Part shown: piece by piece, positions 48,803 through 56,462 of the stretch
Position numbering within the stretch: position 1 is the stretch's first letter
How the letters are laid out: the number at the start of each line of letters is the position of its first letter
Assembly: GCF_029210385.1 (NCBI RefSeq)
Contig: NZ_JARGDQ010000001.1
Coordinates: 310,001 to 374,000, forward strand
Source: Desulfurivibrio dismutans
Lineage (GTDB): Bacteria > Desulfobacterota > Desulfobulbia > Desulfobulbales > Desulfurivibrionaceae
Direction of reading: 5' to 3'
DNA: 64,000 nt
Position numbers and translations under genes: made by a program
The notes under the pieces: model-generated
Seen by the model: the letters and a program-made list of their open reading frames with translations, nothing else
The model's database searches: none
Told to the model about the DNA's origin: nothing

Positions 48803-48889
48803 GCCCGGATGGCGGAACAGGTAGACGCAAGGGACTTAAAATCCCTCGGCCGTTAGGCTGTGCGAGTTCGATTCTCGCTCCGGGCACCA
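48803..48889 (+). tRNA. tRNA-Leu(UAA), integration target
   Basis: An 87-nt class II tRNA, acceptor GCCCGGA/TCCGGGC, anticodon loop CTTAAAA giving UAA, encoded CCA. Its last 58 bp (48832-48889) are repeated at 56405-56462, marking the left attachment site of the integrative element. The gene stays intact. Confidence 0.97.
48832..48889 (+). repeat. attL, left 58-bp direct repeat
   Basis: Begins GGACTTAAAATCCCTC in the anticodon arm of tRNA-Leu(UAA) and runs to the encoded CCA. It is identical to 56405-56462 except at 48854 (T here, A at 56427). Confidence 0.95.
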
Positions 48890-48935
48890 GTAAAAACAAG
48901 GGGTTACGGGTTTTTTCCTGTAAGCCCTTTTTCTT

Positions 48936-48967
48936 TGCTTACGCGGAAGTAAGCACTATGTAAGCAG
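48936..48967. repeat. Left-end GTAAGCA cluster (putative integrase arm sites)
   Basis: GTAAGCA at 48949-48955 and 48960-48966 (11-bp pitch) plus the inverted copy TGCTTAC at 48936-48942. The 19-bp stretch 48949-48967 recurs exactly at 56270-56288 near the other end. Confidence 0.75.
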
Positions 48968-48996
48968 TATGAGCAAAAAACTTTTTTCTCGATCAA

Positions 48997-49034
48997 ACAA
49001 AAAAAAGCCCGCCTCCCTCGAAGGGAAAGCGGGC
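48997..49034 (-). terminator. Intrinsic terminator ending the element's minus-strand transcript
   Basis: GCCCGC (49007-49012) and GCGGGC (49029-49034) flank an inner CCCT..AGGG stem. On the minus strand the hairpin is followed by a run of T (A-run 48997-49006 on the plus strand). It follows the last element gene. Confidence 0.9.
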
Positions 49035-49055
49035 CGGTGCCGAAGGGGGCCAGGT

Positions 49056-49412
49056 TTACACGCGGTTAAAACCAAGCGCCTCAAAAATAGCGGCGTACCG
49101 CTCCCGGCTGTGCCGCTCAACCTCCCACAAGGGGAAGGCTTCGCCAAGGGCCAGCTCACCAACACGGTCGATCAAGACCCTTGCCGACCGGGCTTGATCC
49201 CGAGACTCAAGCGCGTCGATAACCAGCAACATCCGTGCGCGGTCGGTGATCGCGTGTTCCCGCATGATCTCCGCGAAATGGAGCTTTGATTCATCACCGA
49301 GCCGCGAGATGAAAAGCTCCTGCTGCTCGTCGGCATTGGTGCCGTCAAACGGGTTGCCGTTGCCCTGAGTCAGAGCCTTTTCGGTGGGGTTCAGAACGTT
49401 TTTTTTCAACAT
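49056..49412 (-). CDS. Element protein, function unknown (118 aa)
   Basis: A 118-residue protein from ATG 49412, which has GAGGTG 6 bp upstream; the longer open frame to 49544 lacks this. It is highly charged and helical (EQQELFISRLGDESKLHF, then AIIMREHAIT-type segments and IDALESRDQARSARVLID), soluble, without Cys motifs. I recognise no family. It is the most promoter-distal gene of the element and ends just before the terminator; a 173-bp palindrome-rich gap separates it from the next gene. Confidence 0.7.
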   Translation of the reverse strand: MLKKNVLNPTEKALTQGNGNPFDGTNADEQQELFISRLGDESKLHFAEIMREHAITDRARMLLVIDALESRDQARSARVLIDRVGELALGEAFPLWEVERHSRERYAAIFEALGFNRV

Positions 49413-49453
49413 GTTGCACCTCAAAAAATAGAATTGAAAGTTTCCCTTGCGGG

Positions 49454-49592
49454 GGGTTAGCCCCTGATCTCGCCCAGGGGGGCGGCCAGCCGTGCGGGGC
49501 GAGTGTCCGCCGCTGGCTCTGTGGGGTTTTAGGGCACTCCGCACAGTTGCCCGGCCGATTGGGGAATGGCTGACCCCCAGGGCGGCTAACCC
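49454..49592. repeat. Large imperfect palindrome inside the element
   Basis: Outer arms GGGTTAGCC (49454-49462) and GGCTAACCC (49584-49592) enclose CCCCTG/CAGGGG (49461-49480) and a GTGCGG..GAGTG / CACTC-CGCAC pair (about 49492-49505 and 49535-49544). The region is largely non-coding. It could be a structured RNA, a single-strand origin or a processing signal. Confidence 0.6.
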
Positions 49593-50353
49593 TGCTGTAA
49601 GCTATCCCAGCCGCCGGTCATGTCGGTGCGGTTCACGATCCCGGCCAATTTCTGCTCGGCCTCGGAGGCTCTGTGCGAATCTTCCTGAAACTGCTTGCGG
49701 GCCGCTGGTGAGCCTTGGGCTTCGATGGAAATTTCAACGCTGCTATCCAGGACATCAGCAGTCAGCTTTTTTGCCCTCTGGATTTCGGCCCGTTGCGCCA
49801 CAAGGTCAGGTGTCATTTTGTTTTCCGCCATTTTGCGAAACGCTGCCAGCTCCCTGGCTTCAAAACTTACGGTCAGGGGTTGGCCGCCCAATACGGCGCT
49901 AACCACCGCACTGTCGCCCTCTTGAATGGCGCGGGACACGGCCGCCGACCGGTCAGCGGGGTTCATAGCCCTCAACACTGCCCGAATTTCCCCGGCATCT
50001 TGGGTAGGGGTCAGCAGTTGCTCGGAAATTTTTCGGTTCAGTTCACCTTCCCTGAGCTTGAGCCGGTCAAAAGCGGACCTGGCCCGGCTGACGACGGTGT
50101 TGAGCGTTTTTGTGGTCAGCGCCTCGACGCGGCCCAAATGAGCGGCGGCCGTGGATTTCGGGTCTTTGTGCCGCCTGACTCCGTCCAGGGCTTCCCAAGC
50201 GGTAGCGGCGTGGCGTTGGGCGGCCAAGGCCTCCCGGATCGCGCTGTCGGCGGTGTCGCCGTTAAAGCTCTTGTGCCAGCCATCAGCGGCCGTCAGCGGG
50301 GAGGGCAAATTCAGGGGCGGCAATCCTACGTTATACTCCGGTTTTTTCGTCAT
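49586..50353 (-). CDS. Element protein, function unknown (255 aa, coiled-coil)
   Basis: 255 residues from ATG 50353, which has GAGG upstream; the longer frame to 50437 overlaps the preceding gene. It is rich in Ala, Arg, Glu and Gln and mostly predicted helical (AIREALAAQRHAATAWEALD, then ARSAFDRLKLREGELNRKIS). The pattern suggests a long coiled coil, as in phage scaffold, tail-chaperone or minor virion proteins, but no motif identifies it. It is 1 bp after the 94-residue gene. Confidence 0.7.
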   Translation of the reverse strand: MTKKPEYNVGLPPLNLPSPLTAADGWHKSFNGDTADSAIREALAAQRHAATAWEALDGVRRHKDPKSTAAAHLGRVEALTTKTLNTVVSRARSAFDRLKLREGELNRKISEQLLTPTQDAGEIRAVLRAMNPADRSAAVSRAIQEGDSAVVSAVLGGQPLTVSFEARELAAFRKMAENKMTPDLVAQRAEIQRAKKLTADVLDSSVEISIEAQGSPAARKQFQEDSHRASEAEQKLAGIVNRTDMTGGWDSLQQG

Positions 50354-50354
50354 T

Positions 50355-50639
50355 TTATACCTCTTCGGTGATGGTTTCGGCCGGGATCGACCATAGAATC
50401 GGCAAAGCGCCGGGGTTCTCTTCTTTGGCTGCTGCAATGGCTCGGGCCGTCAGGGCCGGGTCAGACTCTCCAGGGTCGCGCATAATCTGGCGGCCGGTGG
50501 TCAGCTCCCAGCCGCCGACCTCATCAATGGCGGGGCCGCCGTCTGGCCCTGGTTTGACTGTTACGATTTTGACGCACTCCGGGCCGGTGGTCAGGTGTTG
50601 GGCCTCCAGGCGGGCAAGGCGTTTCTGTAGATCGCTCAT
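50355..50639 (-). CDS. Element protein, function unknown (94 aa)
   Basis: 94 residues. The N-terminus (MSDLQKRLARLEAQHLTTGPE) has the same short helical opening (xxLQKRLxRLEAQ) as the 73-residue protein at 51239-51460 and the 52-residue protein at 50636-50794, hinting at repeated or modular small proteins. The ATG overlaps the stop of the 52-residue gene. Confidence 0.65.
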   Translation of the reverse strand: MSDLQKRLARLEAQHLTTGPECVKIVTVKPGPDGGPAIDEVGGWELTTGRQIMRDPGESDPALTARAIAAAKEENPGALPILWSIPAETITEEV

Positions 50640-50794
50640 GGTTTCAGCACCTCCCCCGGCTGAATGGTGCGGAATTTTCCGCCGGGCAAAGTGATCTTGA
50701 TCGGCCCTTTCGCCGGTTCCACCGTGAATAGAAACGAAAGGGGCGGTGGCGGTGGCTGGTTCAGCTTCTCAAGGGCTTCAATTCGTCGTTTCAT
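50636..50794 (-). CDS. Small element protein, function unknown (52 aa)
   Basis: A 52-residue frame beginning MKRRIEALEKLNQPPPPP and ending TIQPGEVLKP. The ATG overlaps the upstream stop (ATGA at 50791-50794) and its own stop overlaps the next ATG (50636-50639). Such double coupling argues that it is a real gene despite its size. A helical lead followed by a Pro run suggests a small adaptor. Confidence 0.6.
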   Translation of the reverse strand: MKRRIEALEKLNQPPPPPLSFLFTVEPAKGPIKITLPGGKFRTIQPGEVLKP

Positions 50795-51246
50795 CGGTTG
50801 CATTTTCCTTGCTCCTGTCTGTTTTCGATCTCTGTTAATCTGGCTTCAATCTCTGTTAATTCAAGCACTTTGGCATGATCGGACACCACGCGGGCCAGGG
50901 TTGCCGCCTCGCCGGGCATCAGATCCCCGATTGAAACGGCTTCCAGTATTGCCCCGGTAAGTTCCGACAATTCGCGGCTGGCGGTGATCTTGGGCAACCG
51001 CAGCTTGACGGCTTTTTCCTTGGCAACCGGCACCAGCCTTTCAATGCAAAGGCGCAAGGCTTGAATATCGCCGTTTAAGGCCAGTTCTACGGCTTTTCGG
51101 GTCAAGCCCTCTAGTTCCCCCTCTAGCAACTCCAGGGCCGCCAGGGTGGCTTTGTTTCGGCTTCCTTTGGGCCTTCCTTTGGGGTTCCCGCTTTGCCCCG
51201 GCTTGAACAGGTGCGGGGCTGTTTCTGATTCTGCTTTGTCAGTCAT
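50791..51246 (-). CDS. DUF5681-like element protein
   Basis: 151 residues from ATG 51246, inside the 3' end of the preceding gene. The N-terminal motif FKPGQSGNPKGRPKGSRNKAT (about residues 13-33) is characteristic of the DUF5681 family, common in phage and mobile elements and sometimes next to terminase genes. The C-terminal half is helical and acidic (LTEIEARLTEIENRQEQGK). The biochemical function is unknown; the basic KGRPKGSRNK segment suggests nucleic-acid contact. Confidence 0.75.
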   Translation of the reverse strand: MTDKAESETAPHLFKPGQSGNPKGRPKGSRNKATLAALELLEGELEGLTRKAVELALNGDIQALRLCIERLVPVAKEKAVKLRLPKITASRELSELTGAILEAVSIGDLMPGEAATLARVVSDHAKVLELTEIEARLTEIENRQEQGKCNR

Positions 51247-51460
51247 GGGGGGCCTCTTTGGTGGGCATTGGAACGCCTCGATCATGCAAGCGCCCTATTA
51301 GCAGGGCCAGCAATTCGGGGAGGGGGTGCTTGTTTGCCAGGTCACGGGCCGCCTCTTCCTGCTCCGGGCCTTCATGGTCCAGACCGGCCAGGGCAAGGGC
51401 GATATAGTTTGTGGTCCCGTCTTGGCCCTCAAGCCTCTTCAGTCTCTGTTTTGCGTTCAT
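51239..51460 (-). CDS. Small element protein, function unknown (73 aa)
   Basis: 73 residues, MNAKQRLKRLEGQDGTTNYI..., acidic C-terminus. The opening helix resembles those of the 94- and 52-residue element proteins. It overlaps the DUF5681-like gene. Upstream lies a 170-bp gap with paired TGCTTAC sites and part of the TGTTCCGC repeat array. Confidence 0.6.
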   Translation of the reverse strand: MNAKQRLKRLEGQDGTTNYIALALAGLDHEGPEQEEAARDLANKHPLPELLALLIGRLHDRGVPMPTKEAPHD

Positions 51461-51474
51461 CGTTTTTGCCTCCG

Positions 51475-51492
51475 TGCTTACAAGGTGCTTAC
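51475..51492. repeat. Internal paired TGCTTAC sites
   Basis: TGCTTAC (inverse of GTAAGCA) at 51475-51481 and 51486-51492, again at 11-bp pitch. It is in the gap after the primase gene, so the pair is not confined to the element ends. Confidence 0.7.
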
Positions 51493-51613
51493 ATTCTGGC
51501 CGGGCTGTTTTGTAAGGTCTTGCCGCTGGCCGCTTTTTTTCTTGCCAACAAGGGATAGGGTGTCCCTTGCTTTTTGGTGGGGGTACGGAACATGGAACAA
51601 CCCCCTAGGGTGC

Positions 51614-51815
51614 TGTTCCGTGTGTTCCGCTTAGACCCGTGGAACATGTTCCCTTAATGTTCCGCTTGTGTTCCGCTGTTCCGCTTCATCGTTAATCCCT
51701 GTATTGACGGGGTTTTCCAGGATTTCACCGGTCATAAAATCAATGTTCCCCTGGTCCATTTCTGCCCCGTTGTCAGCCTGGTGTTCCGCTGGGGGCAAAT
51801 GTTCCGCTGTTCCGC
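51614..51815. repeat. TGTTCCGC iteron-like repeats
   Basis: Exact TGTTCCGC at 51623, 51658, 51669, 51677, 51782, 51800 and 51808, with TGTTCCGT at 51614 and a GGAACATGTTCC palindrome at 51641-51652. Two pairs are in direct tandem (51669/51677 and 51800/51808). They span the last codons of the primase gene and the gap after it. The layout resembles replication iterons. Confidence 0.7.
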
Positions 51816-53808
51816 TGTCCCGGTCGCCGGAAAAAGCCTTTTCAATCTCCCGCTCCCGAAGTCCTGCATCGGGGGTGGTCATCCGGTAAAGGTCATTTTT
51901 CGCGGTTGCCATGCCGTCAGCGGTAAGGGCCTTTCTCAACCGCTGGAAGGCCATTTTTTTTGCTGGCGCATTATCGGCGGTGCTGATCTCGTAGAAAACC
52001 GGCCGCCAGTCCTCCAGGTGCAAGCCCAGAAAAGATCCGTCATCGTTTAGGGTGGGGGCCTTTTCGGCGGCGCACCAGAAAGAGGCCACGCCCTGCCGTT
52101 GGCTTTCGGTCATGATCTTTGCCCGTTTCAGGCTGTCCCGGCTGTCAACTTTGATCGCGCAACTGGTGATGGGGTCGCCATCATCGTCAATGCCCAGGTT
52201 GACCACCTCAAGGGAAAAGGGGTGTTCCGTGCCGTCTAAGCCCTCTTTCACCTTGTCGGCCCGCCATAGTCGTTGCTGCCCTCGGCGCTTCACCTCTATG
52301 GAAGCATCAAGGGCCGGAAGCTGGCTAGAATGGCCCCGTGCGCCCTTTGTTGCGTCTTTGCCGGTATGGGCTATCAAAAGGGCGAAACCTTCAATAGTTG
52401 CGGCCAGGGTCTTGGCCCCGTCGATAATTTGGCCCATGTCCTTGCCTGAATTTTCGTCAGCATCAGGGGCGGCGCAAGCCTGCGTGTCGATAACCACTAT
52501 GGCACCTTTGGGCGACACGGTGGCCAGGTCGGCCACGTCTTGCGGCTGGTTAATGCGGAATGGCTGCATGACCATGAAAAAATCACGGGGCAGGCTATCC
52601 CGGCCGTTTGCCTTCTTCCAGGCTTCGGCCCGCAACTTGAAACCGGCTTCACCCTCAAGGGCCAGGTAAACCACCGGCCGCTGTTTGACGCGATAGCCGA
52701 ACCAGTCCCGGCCCTCGGCAACGTGACAAACCATGTCCCATACAAGGAACGATTTACCCTCTTTGCTTGGCCCGAATGTTTGACCAAGGCCACGGCTAGG
52801 CAAAACGCCCTTGATTACCCATTCCACCGGGGGCAGGGCCTCAAGGTCGGCACCGGTCAGCAGCTTAAAGCGGGGGCCGGTCTCTTTGTTGCTCCCGGCT
52901 GTTTCTGTCGCCCTGGTTTCATTCGCAAGCGCCCGTGCTGCCGCCCGGAAGTCCCCGCCGTGTTCGTAGGCGGTGAACAATCCGAAAGCGGTATAAGATC
53001 GCTCAGGCTCAAGCGGTCCCGCGTTGCTGCTCCAGCAATAGAAATTGCCTGTTTTGTCCAGCAGGACACCGGAACAACCTTCACCTTTACCGGGGCGGGT
53101 CCATGCTTCCCCGGCCGTGGTGCGGTCGCCAGGCTTCCAGCCGTGGGCCGCCAGTAGCTCGGCCGCGCTGTGGTTGCGGTTGTAGATGTCGCCGGGGTTG
53201 TCTGTGGTGGGCGGGGTCAGCGGGAGTGAAGATAAAAGATCGCTTTTCGCGGTCAGGTCCGGGGCGGGCCGCAAGTCAAAGGCTTTGGCCGCCCGGTGAA
53301 GGGTTGCCACCTCATCGGCCGACAAGGTGGGGCAGTCGGTCAGACTCCCGGCAAGCGGGGTATAACCGGGGCTGGGAGCGGTCAGGAAATAGCCACCCTC
53401 GCCGCGTGTCTCAATCCGTACCTGTTTCTTGTCAGACGAAACGGCCAGTTTTTGGTTGCCCTTAACCGGGTCATTGCACCGATACGCCAGGTGATAACCG
53501 CCGCTTGGTGTTTGGAAACGGGGTAAACGGTCAGCCAGGCCGGGGGCCATCTGCTCCAGCGTTTCAAGGAACGGCTGAAAGGCTTTGGGGTCGTCAAAAT
53601 CTAACAACTCAAGGCCGCCGGAAACCTTGCCCGCAACCACGGCCAGCCGTGCGCCGTTGCTGAATTTCTGCCGGGCTGTTTCCGGGGTCATGGGCTGGCC
53701 CTGGTAGTCTTGCCACCGCCCCCGCGGGGTCTTGTCGGCGTTCACTGGAATAACCGAGAAACCGGCCGCCAGGAAGTCAAGCGCCGCCTGTTGGGTGCTG
53801 GCCGTCAT
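51631..53808 (-). CDS. Primase-polymerase/AAA helicase-like replication protein
   Basis: 725 residues. The N-terminal primase-polymerase-like domain (about 1-175) has the acidic DFDD motif (Asp70, Asp72) and His106 in GGYHLAYR. A middle part has a zinc-ribbon-like CSGVLLDKTGNFYCWS. A RecA/DnaB-like AAA domain (about 320-560) has Walker A GPSKEGKS at 346-353 and Walker B IVVID at 437-441. Such fusions initiate replication of plasmids, satellites and integrative elements. Iteron-like repeats overlap its 3' end. It starts where the stop of the 98-residue gene overlaps. Confidence 0.85.
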   Translation of the reverse strand: MTASTQQAALDFLAAGFSVIPVNADKTPRGRWQDYQGQPMTPETARQKFSNGARLAVVAGKVSGGLELLDFDDPKAFQPFLETLEQMAPGLADRLPRFQTPSGGYHLAYRCNDPVKGNQKLAVSSDKKQVRIETRGEGGYFLTAPSPGYTPLAGSLTDCPTLSADEVATLHRAAKAFDLRPAPDLTAKSDLLSSLPLTPPTTDNPGDIYNRNHSAAELLAAHGWKPGDRTTAGEAWTRPGKGEGCSGVLLDKTGNFYCWSSNAGPLEPERSYTAFGLFTAYEHGGDFRAAARALANETRATETAGSNKETGPRFKLLTGADLEALPPVEWVIKGVLPSRGLGQTFGPSKEGKSFLVWDMVCHVAEGRDWFGYRVKQRPVVYLALEGEAGFKLRAEAWKKANGRDSLPRDFFMVMQPFRINQPQDVADLATVSPKGAIVVIDTQACAAPDADENSGKDMGQIIDGAKTLAATIEGFALLIAHTGKDATKGARGHSSQLPALDASIEVKRRGQQRLWRADKVKEGLDGTEHPFSLEVVNLGIDDDGDPITSCAIKVDSRDSLKRAKIMTESQRQGVASFWCAAEKAPTLNDDGSFLGLHLEDWRPVFYEISTADNAPAKKMAFQRLRKALTADGMATAKNDLYRMTTPDAGLREREIEKAFSGDRDSGTAEHLPPAEHQADNGAEMDQGNIDFMTGEILENPVNTGINDEAEQRNTSGTLREHVPRV

Positions 53809-54104
53809 TATTCACGCTCCAGGGTGTACTTGGCCACCCTGTGCATTTTGCCGCTTGCACCTGGTTCCCAAACCCAATGGGTCAGTATTTTGTAGCCCAT
53901 CTTCCGCAGCTCGCAGACACGGCCGCCGGGGTGTAAAACTCCGAGATGGTCACGGCTGTAAATTGTCGTCAGGCTGTGGCTTGCCAGGTGGTTAAGCATC
54001 GCTTGACGTTGGGCCGCTGCCCCGCTATAGTTGTTTTGCCGTTTGTTGTTTTGCCCCTGCCCGTGGTTGCCGCCATTGGTGGGGGCGCTTTGGTTCTGGC
54101 TCAT
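53808..54104 (-). CDS. Small helix-turn-helix-like element protein
   Basis: 98 residues. The N-terminal third is Asn/Gln/Gly-rich and disordered. The remainder (QRQAMLNHLASHSLTTIYSR, then HPGGRVCELRKMGYKI) matches the winged-helix pattern of small phage helix-turn-helix proteins that read DNA or aid replication. It overlaps the primase start by one base and so is co-translated. Confidence 0.7.
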   Translation of the reverse strand: MSQNQSAPTNGGNHGQGQNNKRQNNYSGAAAQRQAMLNHLASHSLTTIYSRDHLGVLHPGGRVCELRKMGYKILTHWVWEPGASGKMHRVAKYTLERE

Positions 54105-54201
54105 TTTTTCACCTCTTTGCTTTCAGGGTGCTTTCAGCCCTGGATTTCTCCAGGCATTTTCACGCTAAAACAGGTAGTTCCGTGCATTTTCCGCAGGATT
54201 A

Positions 54202-54402
54202 CTAATCCTTTGCGGTGGAGTTGCGCGAACAGCCAGCAAGGAACCGGTCCAGGTCCTCGGCACGGTATCGCACGGCACGGCCGATTTTCAGGAAAGCAGG
54301 GCCTCGGCCTTGAACGCGCCAAACTTCGAGCGTTCCGGGTTTGACTCCAAGAATCGGTGCGGCTTGTTCAGTGGTCAGGGGTGGTGCGGTGGGGTGTTCC
54401 AT
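54202..54402 (-). CDS. AlpA/excisionase-like MerR-type regulator
   Basis: 66-residue helix-turn-helix protein: LTTEQAAPILGVKPGTLEVW is the DNA-reading segment and AVRYRAEDLDRFL the wing of the AlpA/HTH_17 family. In P4-like elements, AlpA activates the integrase and promotes excision. The ATG at 54402 has AGGCC upstream. The promoter side carries inverted GCGGAAC and a TGCTTAC site. 97 bp to the next gene show no other gene. Confidence 0.85.
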   Translation of the reverse strand: MEHPTAPPLTTEQAAPILGVKPGTLEVWRVQGRGPAFLKIGRAVRYRAEDLDRFLAGCSRNSTAKD

Positions 54403-54456
54403 GGTATGGCCTCCATAAGTGTTTGTTTAACTCATGTGGCCATCATAGGGCGGGGG

Positions 54457-54484
54457 GCGGAACGGTGCTTACTTCCAGTTCCGC
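54457..54484. repeat. Inverted GCGGAAC repeat upstream of the AlpA-like gene
   Basis: GCGGAAC (54457-54463) and GTTCCGC (54478-54484) with TGCTTAC (54466-54472) between. The same GCGGAAC core makes up the iteron-like array in and after the primase gene, so a single protein may bind both. Confidence 0.6.
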
Positions 54485-54502
54485 TTTTGTTTGTGGTGGG
54501 CT

Positions 54503-55021
54503 TTACAGTCCTGCATCATTTAAAATTTTACTGATATAACGGGATGATACGCCTTTCCTTCCCGCTATGATTCCGGCTATTTCTCGCCTTGGCTTGCCAT
54601 TTTCAAGCAGATTAAGGGCGATTTTTGCCACCTCATCCCGGTTGATCGCCGTTTCTCGTTTCGCCGCGCCGCCCTTTTTGCCGCCATCGGAGCAGCCGCC
54701 TTGACGGCCCAGGTCCCGCTTTACGTTCCGCTCGCTGGCCTCCAGGATGATTAGGCTTTCGGCTTTCTCTTCCAGCAGGGCGAACCGGTCCCGCAATTCG
54801 GTAGGTAATCCCGCGTCACCTTCAAGCAGGGCCTCGGCTTCGTCTATAAGGTCCGCTGCTTCCCCGCCCACCATTGCCGACCATTGCCGCAAGCGGTCAA
54901 TCCGGCCCTCTGGTGAATGTGCCCGCACCCATTGATAGACACCGTTGAGGGTCTGCATGGTGGGGGTACACATTTCAATCATGATGGGGGTGCCTTTGAG
55001 TCTCTTCCATTCCTTTTTCAT
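54503..55021 (-). CDS. Element protein with C-terminal HTH-like region
   Basis: 172 residues. A helical, acidic N-terminal part (QWSAMVGGEAADLIDEAEAL) is followed by a Gly/Lys-rich hinge (CSDGGKKGGAAKRE) and a C-terminal segment (RREIAGIIAGRKGVSSRYIS) that resembles a resolvase-type or recombination-directionality helix-turn-helix. The first codons overlap the integrase stop (4 bp), so integrase and this protein are co-expressed. Function unknown. Confidence 0.65.
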   Translation of the reverse strand: MKKEWKRLKGTPIMIEMCTPTMQTLNGVYQWVRAHSPEGRIDRLRQWSAMVGGEAADLIDEAEALLEGDAGLPTELRDRFALLEEKAESLIILEASERNVKRDLGRQGGCSDGGKKGGAAKRETAINRDEVAKIALNLLENGKPRREIAGIIAGRKGVSSRYISKILNDAGL

Positions 55022-56250
55022 GCCGTGGCCCTCCGGGTTTCAAGGTCAACAACTTTGGCGGCGGCAAGCTTGGCCTGTCGCAATATCCAGGCGGCTATAA
55101 GATCGGCTTCCGGCTTCAAATATCGCAAGTCGGAAGTTTCCGTGTAATGCTTAATGGTTACATCGTTTCCGGGCTTGTGGTTCATCAAAAGCTTGGTTTT
55201 CCAATACTCCACGGCGGCCGCGCCAGCAATGGCCCGGAAGCACCGCCGCAGGTCATGGGGTGACACATGCCCCCCGGCTGCCGTCTCAAGCTTACTGAAA
55301 ACGCCTCTAGGGTCTTTCAGGTGGCCGCTTTGGGTCCTGGACGGGAAAACATATTCACTTGTCCGGGGGCGGGCCTCCAGGATAGCCAGGGCGGGGCCAG
55401 AAAGGGGCAGGGTGACGGGGTTCCGGTTCTTGGGGTCTAGCAGCCTGAAAAAGCCTTCTTCCAGGTCTACAAGCTCCCAGGTCAGGGTTGCCGCTTCACT
55501 CCACCGGGTTCCAGTCAGTAGCAGGAAGGCCACAATATCGGCGGTTGTGCGGCTGATCGTGGTTTGTTCCGGGGCTTCCCGCAAGGCTTGAAGCTGGTTC
55601 CAGGTGTCGCCCAATCTCTCAAGCTGAATGGTCCGGGAACGGGGCTTGATGTTGTTCCACAACTTGGCATCAGAAAGGATGGTGCAGGGGTTTTCCGGTA
55701 ACAGGGGGGCATCGTCTGGCCGGTAGGTGGCCCGCGCGTAATTCAAAAGCGCCCGCAAGACGCGGAAACTTTGGTTTGCTTGGGCGGGGCTTTCGGCTGT
55801 TTTCTGCCTAAACCGGGTGGCTACTTTATCGCGGGTAATGGCTGCCGCCGGCTTGTTGGCCCATGCTTTAAAGGTGGTCTTGATATGGCGGCGTATATTG
55901 TCCACGCTGGCCTGTTTAAGGTCGCGGCGGTCTGATATGTAAGCCTCGGCCACTTCGGCCAGGGTGACAGAAAGCGCCCGTGCTTTTTGCTTTTCGGCGG
56001 TGGGGTCTTTGCCTTCACCTAGGGCGGCCAGGGCTTGCTTTGCCTTCCGGCGGGCTTCGTCGGTGGTTATCACCCCGTGACGGCCAAGAGAAACGCGGCG
56101 GGTTCGGCCATTTACCCGGCCTTGGATAATGTAAGTTTTGCCCCCTGGTGTCATCCGAAGGCCAAAGCCGCGTGTATAATCATCCCAGATTAGCACTTGT
56201 CCGGCATCGGGTAAGGCCAGTTTTTCCACGCCAGTCTTGGTAAGTTTCAT
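55018..56250 (-). CDS. int: Tyrosine-recombinase integrase (DUF4102/P4 family)
   Basis: 410 residues. An N-terminal arm-binding DUF4102-type domain (about 3-85, RGFGLRMTPGGKTYI), a core-binding domain (about 95-185) and a catalytic domain with Arg249 (TGTRWSEAATL), His332/Arg335 (PHDLRRCFRA), His358 and nucleophile Tyr369 (KHYTE) are present. ATG 56250 has AGGGGGC upstream and matches the family start. Adjacency to attR and the tRNA-Leu target agree. It catalyses integration and, with a directionality factor, excision. Confidence 0.95.
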   Translation of the reverse strand: MKLTKTGVEKLALPDAGQVLIWDDYTRGFGLRMTPGGKTYIIQGRVNGRTRRVSLGRHGVITTDEARRKAKQALAALGEGKDPTAEKQKARALSVTLAEVAEAYISDRRDLKQASVDNIRRHIKTTFKAWANKPAAAITRDKVATRFRQKTAESPAQANQSFRVLRALLNYARATYRPDDAPLLPENPCTILSDAKLWNNIKPRSRTIQLERLGDTWNQLQALREAPEQTTISRTTADIVAFLLLTGTRWSEAATLTWELVDLEEGFFRLLDPKNRNPVTLPLSGPALAILEARPRTSEYVFPSRTQSGHLKDPRGVFSKLETAAGGHVSPHDLRRCFRAIAGAAAVEYWKTKLLMNHKPGNDVTIKHYTETSDLRYLKPEADLIAAWILRQAKLAAAKVVDLETRRATA

Positions 56251-56269
56251 TTTCGCCCCCTGTTTTTCT

Positions 56270-56288
56270 GTAAGCACTATGTAAGCAG
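56270..56288. repeat. Right-end paired GTAAGCA sites
   Basis: GTAAGCA at 56270-56276 and 56281-56287, 11-bp pitch; the whole 19 bp matches 48949-48967 exactly. A further inverted copy lies at 56361-56367. It lies upstream of int, between it and attR. Confidence 0.75.
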
Positions 56289-56404
56289 ACTAGGTAAAAA
56301 ACCATTAAACTACATGGGATTTAATCTAGGGCAAGACTGTTGATATGTCAAGGAAAATGCTGCTTACAAAAACAGGGTAAAGGATGGTAAAACAGGACTA
56401 CATA

Positions 56405-56462
56405 GGACTTAAAATCCCTCGGCCGTAAGGCTGTGCGAGTTCGATTCTCGCTCCGGGCACCA
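56405..56462 (+). repeat. attR, right 58-bp direct repeat (tRNA-Leu 3' fragment)
   Basis: A copy of the tRNA-Leu(UAA) 3' half, with one difference (A at 56427 instead of T). It lacks the 5' half, so it is not a tRNA gene. Confidence 0.95.

Follow-up and report, generated by a model that had tools for sequence, protein, structure and literature searches.

Gram-negative PICIs are defined by int, alpA and primase genes that run in one direction, with int pointing inward, and by the order int, alpA, replication genes and late genes (PMC10111431). They occupy att sites that prophages never use. AlpA triggers the induction of these islands and also that of PICMI (PMC10111431, PMC6092414, PMC10803314), and in helper-embedded PICIs attP is reported to be flanked by a doubled motif (PMC10111431). 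PICMI, a 6-8 kb element that resides downstream of fis in Vibrionaceae, works without TerS and depends for its excision on a gene with an ATGA overlap (PMC10803314). P4-like satellites combine an integrase, an AlpA/Vis-type regulator and a primase-helicase with a tRNA site.

We have analyzed a 64,000-nucleotide stretch of the Desulfurivibrio dismutans genome (contig NZ_JARGDQ010000001.1, positions 310,001 to 374,000; hereafter the window), in which an island of 7.57 kb (48832-56462) is inserted in a tRNA-Leu(TAA) gene (48803..48889, plus strand, found by ARAGORN and Rfam). The island is bounded by a 58-bp direct repeat, the left copy of which (48832-48889) forms nucleotides 30-87 of the tRNA, while the distal copy (56405-56462, plus strand) is identical to it at 57 of the 58 positions; the att repeats proposed in a first-pass annotation of the window are thereby confirmed. 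Since the window tRNA differs from the distal repeat by one base and a sister genome, G106, carries the distal version, the present 3′ end of the window tRNA probably came with the island.

The island contains 11 genes, all on the minus strand, and its coding density is 88.5%. All 11 start with ATG and have a GC3 that exceeds GC2, most have a plausible ribosome site, and several overlap. A promoter-like site (10/12 match) is present ahead of int, and a strong terminator-like hairpin (49006..49035, minus strand) closes the operon. By these features, together with the coding density, the island ORFs look genuine. Three starts were corrected: that of int is best placed at the ATG at 56250, a 283-aa ORF is shortened to start at 50353 (255 aa), and a 162-aa ORF to start at 49412 (118 aa). 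No pseudogenes are seen in the island, and the operon and the att sites are intact.

From the int end, the gene order is integrase, a 172-aa protein, an AlpA-like regulator, an HTH_39 protein and a PrimPol-AAA_25 replicase, followed by a late block coding for proteins of 73 aa, 164 aa (DUF5681), 55, 94, 255 and 118 aa. The inward-pointing tyrosine integrase (410 aa, 55018..56250) was recognized by PHROGs and by the Pfam domains Arm-DNA-bind_3 (2.5e-15) and Phage_integrase (4e-14). The 172-aa gene (P0002, 54503..55021) overlaps int by ATGA and is the positional counterpart of PICMI iolg; neither homology to such positional counterparts nor sequence relatives were found for it. The putative AlpA-like regulator/excisionase (54202..54402) matches HTH_17 (1.6e-12) in Pfam as well as PHROGs, and the HTH_39 winged-helix protein (P0004, 53808..54104, Pfam) has relatives in islands L326, L333 and L168. 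The RepA-like replication protein (725 aa, 51631..53808; Pfam and PHROGs) combines Prim-Pol (1.5e-15) and AAA_25 (2.6e-31) domains. Pfam domains thus bear out the integrase, the AlpA-like regulator and the primase/helicase-like protein named in the first-pass annotation. Of the genes that it left unassigned, seven stay without an assigned function (P0002, P0004, which is the HTH_39 protein, P0006, P0008, P0009, P0012 and P0011), whereas P0007 proved to be a DUF5681 protein.

Compared with Gram-negative PICIs (e.g., EcCICFT073; PMC10111431, PMC6092414), the island has the same genes in the same order and direction, including the inward int. It is likewise small (the PICI average is 9.5 kb; PMC10803314) and free of structural and lytic genes, it has a similar variable late zone, and Prim-Pol is counted among PICI primases. 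It differs in the host order, in the PrimPol-AAA_25 composition of its replicase, and in its late zone, where DUF5681 is found instead of the recognized TerS that some PICIs carry; induction of the island by a phage is a prediction. With PICMI (PMC10803314), the island shares int, the ATGA-overlap gene, alpA, a primase, a few genes of no assigned function, the lack of a capsid-remodelling gene and a size within 6-8 kb. However, it occupies tRNA-Leu(TAA) in Desulfobulbales and not the site downstream of fis in Vibrionaceae, its replicase is Prim-Pol plus AAA_25 where the PICMI primase is DUF3987 plus DUF5906, and DUF5681 is an addition. The likeness to P4-like satellites extends to the integrase, the regulator, a primase-helicase and the tRNA site, but no P4-type alpha primase-helicase or marker gene was detected in the island with Pfam, PHROGs and NCBIfam profiles, so the statement that the remaining genes are unlike those of P4 was correct. 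Because order, direction, size and the absence of structural genes agree with PICIs, while PICMI departs in site and primase and P4 in gene content, we consider it likely that the island is a phage satellite that operates in the way of a Gram-negative PICI or PICMI, and the DUF5681 protein is a candidate for the factor that would direct its DNA to a helper terminase.

The gene content also bears on whether the island could be an IME, i.e., a self-replicating integrative element mobilized in trans by a conjugative element. Such an element would likewise have its own replicase and integrase and lack phage structural genes, and some relatives of the replicase are plasmid-borne, though they cover only 43-46% of it. 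No mobilization, relaxase or defense gene was detected among the island genes scanned with Pfam, PHROGs and NCBIfam profiles, nor did profile searches of the island find phage structural, lytic, conjugation or plasmid-partition genes; relatives of the island have TerS, TerL and capsid genes instead. We therefore hold mobilization by conjugation to be improbable. The same searches uphold the earlier statement that the island has no mobilization or defense gene, while its packaging part is qualified by the presence of DUF5681. Exact peptide patterns of the replicase retrieved no close relative from IMG/VR or GTDB contigs, and alignment was required. A PrimPol with 51% identity was observed in L131 (DYOB01000162.1), a cave MAG contig labeled Borreliella garinii, an organism label that is doubtful.

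Five genomes of the genus were available for comparison. In G106, the left and right flanks join without a gap across the tRNA and the hairpin that comes after it (score 24, against 7.0 +/- 1.3 and at most 13.5 for shuffles), and the tRNA site sought for in the first-pass annotation is therefore empty there. An empty site looked likely in G114 as well, but the short match was not beyond shuffles and this candidate was rejected. In G004, a different island of ca. 8 kb (L297:1956-10200) occupies the same tRNA and carries int (28% identity to the window int), an ATGA-overlapping gene, AlpA, a DNA primase and TerL (3.4e-32); no capsid gene was seen in it, and its TerL has no match in other Desulfobulbales. 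The G004 island brings its own complete tRNA-Leu, which differs in sequence, and the old tRNA is split into nucleotides 1-42 and 30-87. The 13-nt overlap of the two halves, GGACTTAAAATCC, marks the crossover, and the window repeat begins at the same nucleotide 30; we infer from this split tRNA that the crossover core of the window island is the same sequence, in the tRNA-Leu anticodon stem-loop. Only other islands were seen as occupants of this tRNA-Leu within the genus.

An empty site together with a re-occupied tRNA shows recent movement, and the comparison indicates that the island is mobile in evolution, neither fixed nor decayed in the genus. This bears on the view of the island as a decaying prophage remnant that has lost its structural genes. 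Among full-length relatives, the best match to the replicase does lie in a prophage-like locus, L140, adjoining TerL, portal and capsid genes. Yet recent movement, the intact operon and att sites noted above, and the occurrence of the same compact layout at several tRNAs and in several species argue against decay, and a remnant appears quite unlikely. Doubled copies of GTAAGCA with 11-bp spacing, found by motif search, are present in the same orientation near both ends of the island (48949..48966 and 56270..56287, both plus strand), ca. 120 and 132 bp from the att core, as candidate integrase/AlpA arm sites resembling the att-flanking doubled motif of helper-embedded PICIs. An inverted doubled copy just upstream of the late block (51475..51492, minus strand) is a possible operator. 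In total, GTAAGCA occurs nine times in the element against 0.67 expected, and the inner copies may regulate alpA and the late block. A doubled 11-bp-spaced motif common to both ends was found in 7 of 11 islands tested but in only 3 of 2689 pairs of randomly drawn stretches.

The late block (49056-51460) had been singled out for helper interference or capsid redirection; a packaging-related module is plausible there, while no capsid-size or interference gene was identified in it. Three of its products, P0006 (73 aa, 51239..51460, minus strand), P0008 (55 aa, 50636..50803, minus strand; RIEALE) and P0009 (94 aa, 50355..50639, minus strand), have a common N-terminal RLxRLE-type motif, and a relative of P0009 adjoins DUF5681 in L333 (7.8e-6). 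Among 215 small genes called in viral loci the motif is present in a single one, which lies beside DUF5681, and RLxRLE-type proteins come after DUF5681 in L047, L048, L049, L056, L328 and L333. The two last proteins, P0012 (255 aa, 49586..50353, minus strand) and P0011 (118 aa, 49056..49412, minus strand), found no relatives in profile and relative searches, and the structure model of P0012 is all-helical, of low confidence (pLDDT 56) and unusable. The cargo is not that of a well-described satellite family.

P0007 (164 aa, 50791..51285, minus strand; Pfam 1.5e-15) shares the N-terminal KPGQSGNPxGRPKG domain with DUF5681 phage proteins (PF18932), which usually adjoin TerL in the loci read. P0007 differs in having an extra C-terminal helical hairpin and in lying after the replicase in an island that has no TerL. 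Its AF2 model is helical (pLDDT 85); the fold search returned no PDB match, no solved TerS and only weak viral matches, including the phBC6A51 homeodomain, and PHROGs gave no TerS profile match. Ribosomal S20-like matches in the fold search were rejected as generic helical noise.

In IMG/VR, DUF5681 lies directly before TerL in 62 of 80 loci, a figure that is not an unbiased rate, since the loci were found mainly via a KPGQSGNP seed and some are near-duplicates; the TerL models behind this count derive from two clusters that PHROGs had identified (1e-42 or better). The complete annotated phage MW202710 has DUF5681, TerL and connector in this order, and in phiPMW DUF5681 is located three genes ahead of TerL. 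DUF5681 of the FelixO1 group was rejected as a control for the TerS position, its neighbor being an RNA-binding protein and not TerL. Since the usual position of DUF5681 in free phages is that of the packaging-selector gene, the island probably travels in the particles of another phage.

The recruitment of the terminase by DUF5681 is the weakest step of the satellite reading, because P0007-type genes mostly do not adjoin TerL (those of L047, L048, L049 and L056 lie away from it), both DUF5681 and TerS occur in a sister island of the same genome, and the P0007 model matches no solved TerS. The first two of these facts, and the ability of PICMI to work without TerS (PMC10803314), favor a satellite in which DUF5681 is a DNA-binding regulator or accessory late protein and packaging is passive (headful or through helper pac/cos-like sites). 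Set against this are the position directly before TerL, the commonest one for viral DUF5681, and a P0007-type gene inside the TerL-portal cluster of L069. We regard passive packaging as a possible but less favored explanation, and P0007 as a candidate TerS-like packaging factor, an assignment that falls somewhat short of an even chance.

The DUF5681 family is present in 14 of 258 Desulfobulbales genomes, 11 above the cut-off. Among ten further loci, five have an integrase upstream (L326, L328, L333, L334 and L335), separated from DUF5681 in most of these by AlpA and a replication gene, and four of the five have clear tRNA att repeats that delimit islands of 7.2, 8.2, 9.7 and 13.6 kb. AlpA is also present in L330 and L332, while L327, L329 and L331 are truncated or ambiguous. 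In Desulfobulbales, DUF5681 recurs in int-AlpA-rep islands of 7-25 kb at other tRNAs, where it comes after the replication gene, and it persists while the replication modules vary (AAA_25, RepB_primase, Toprim-AAA_25, DUF3987). The lack of TerL in these islands is provisional, since the TerL genes of L037 and L069 escape our models. Most plausibly, DUF5681 and the RLxRLE small proteins form a recurrent, packaging-related late module of phages and satellites. A second recurrent family (ca. 155-183 aa, starting with MDIxKKIYQxLTPKQRA, no Pfam match) follows DUF5681 directly in several islands (L329:10090-10620, L330:4769-5320, L332:6568-7101, L335:10366-11477 and L025:12474-13488) and is doubled in two. 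The DUF5681 island in tRNA-Leu(CAA) also contains two genes (L335:12271-16749) that, judged by eye, are likely a restriction-modification system.

Across the order, 20 of 258 genomes code for the replicase itself (E<=1e-30), mostly with an integrase and in several cases with AlpA; where the contig allows, repeats are located at tRNA-Lys, tRNA-Arg and others. The sister island (G000:C12 ~111465-136795; L025 from 5466, L310 to 17824) is 25.3 kb long, resides at a tRNA-Arg and codes for int, PrimPol (55% identity), DUF5681 and a frameshifted TerS (Terminase_2, 2e-11); since it holds both, its DUF5681 and TerS may do different jobs. Its cargo includes Lamassu (LmuA/B/C, LmuB 1.7e-131) and a type I restriction-modification system. 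An intact TerS is found in L032, a fused capsid-protease in L035 (11371-13212), and TerS, TerL and a head-morphogenesis gene in L037 (2185-6375), the last two resembling capsid-forming satellites or reduced prophages. Architecture, the empty site, the re-use of the same tRNA and this family of like islands support the first-pass description of a satellite or minimal replicating island.

The genes suggest how excision, replication, phage induction and packaging of such a satellite might proceed. The integrase and AlpA, probably with the int-overlapping protein, would recombine the att sites within the anticodon stem-loop of tRNA-Leu and so excise the island, with the doubled motifs serving as arm sites, and the PrimPol-AAA_25 protein would replicate the excised circle. 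The late block would be expressed next, and the DUF5681 protein would mark island DNA, in the manner of TerS, for packaging by a helper-phage terminase, the particles being made entirely by the helper. A search of the genome for a helper prophage gave no convincing candidate; its phrog_2 matches are weak and come from a model that also matches most control genomes.

A literature search found no report of PICI- or PICMI-style satellites in Desulfobulbales, where the island would now place them. More tentatively, DUF5681 may be an unrecognized class of TerS common to environmental tailed phages and to widespread Desulfobulbales satellites (int-AlpA-rep-DUF5681, some with defense cargo), kept while replication modules are swapped and redirecting helper terminases. 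DUF5681, a family without a function, would thereby gain a testable role, and a satellite gene that is kept across unrelated replication modules would point to the parasitic step, the choice of whose DNA gets packaged.
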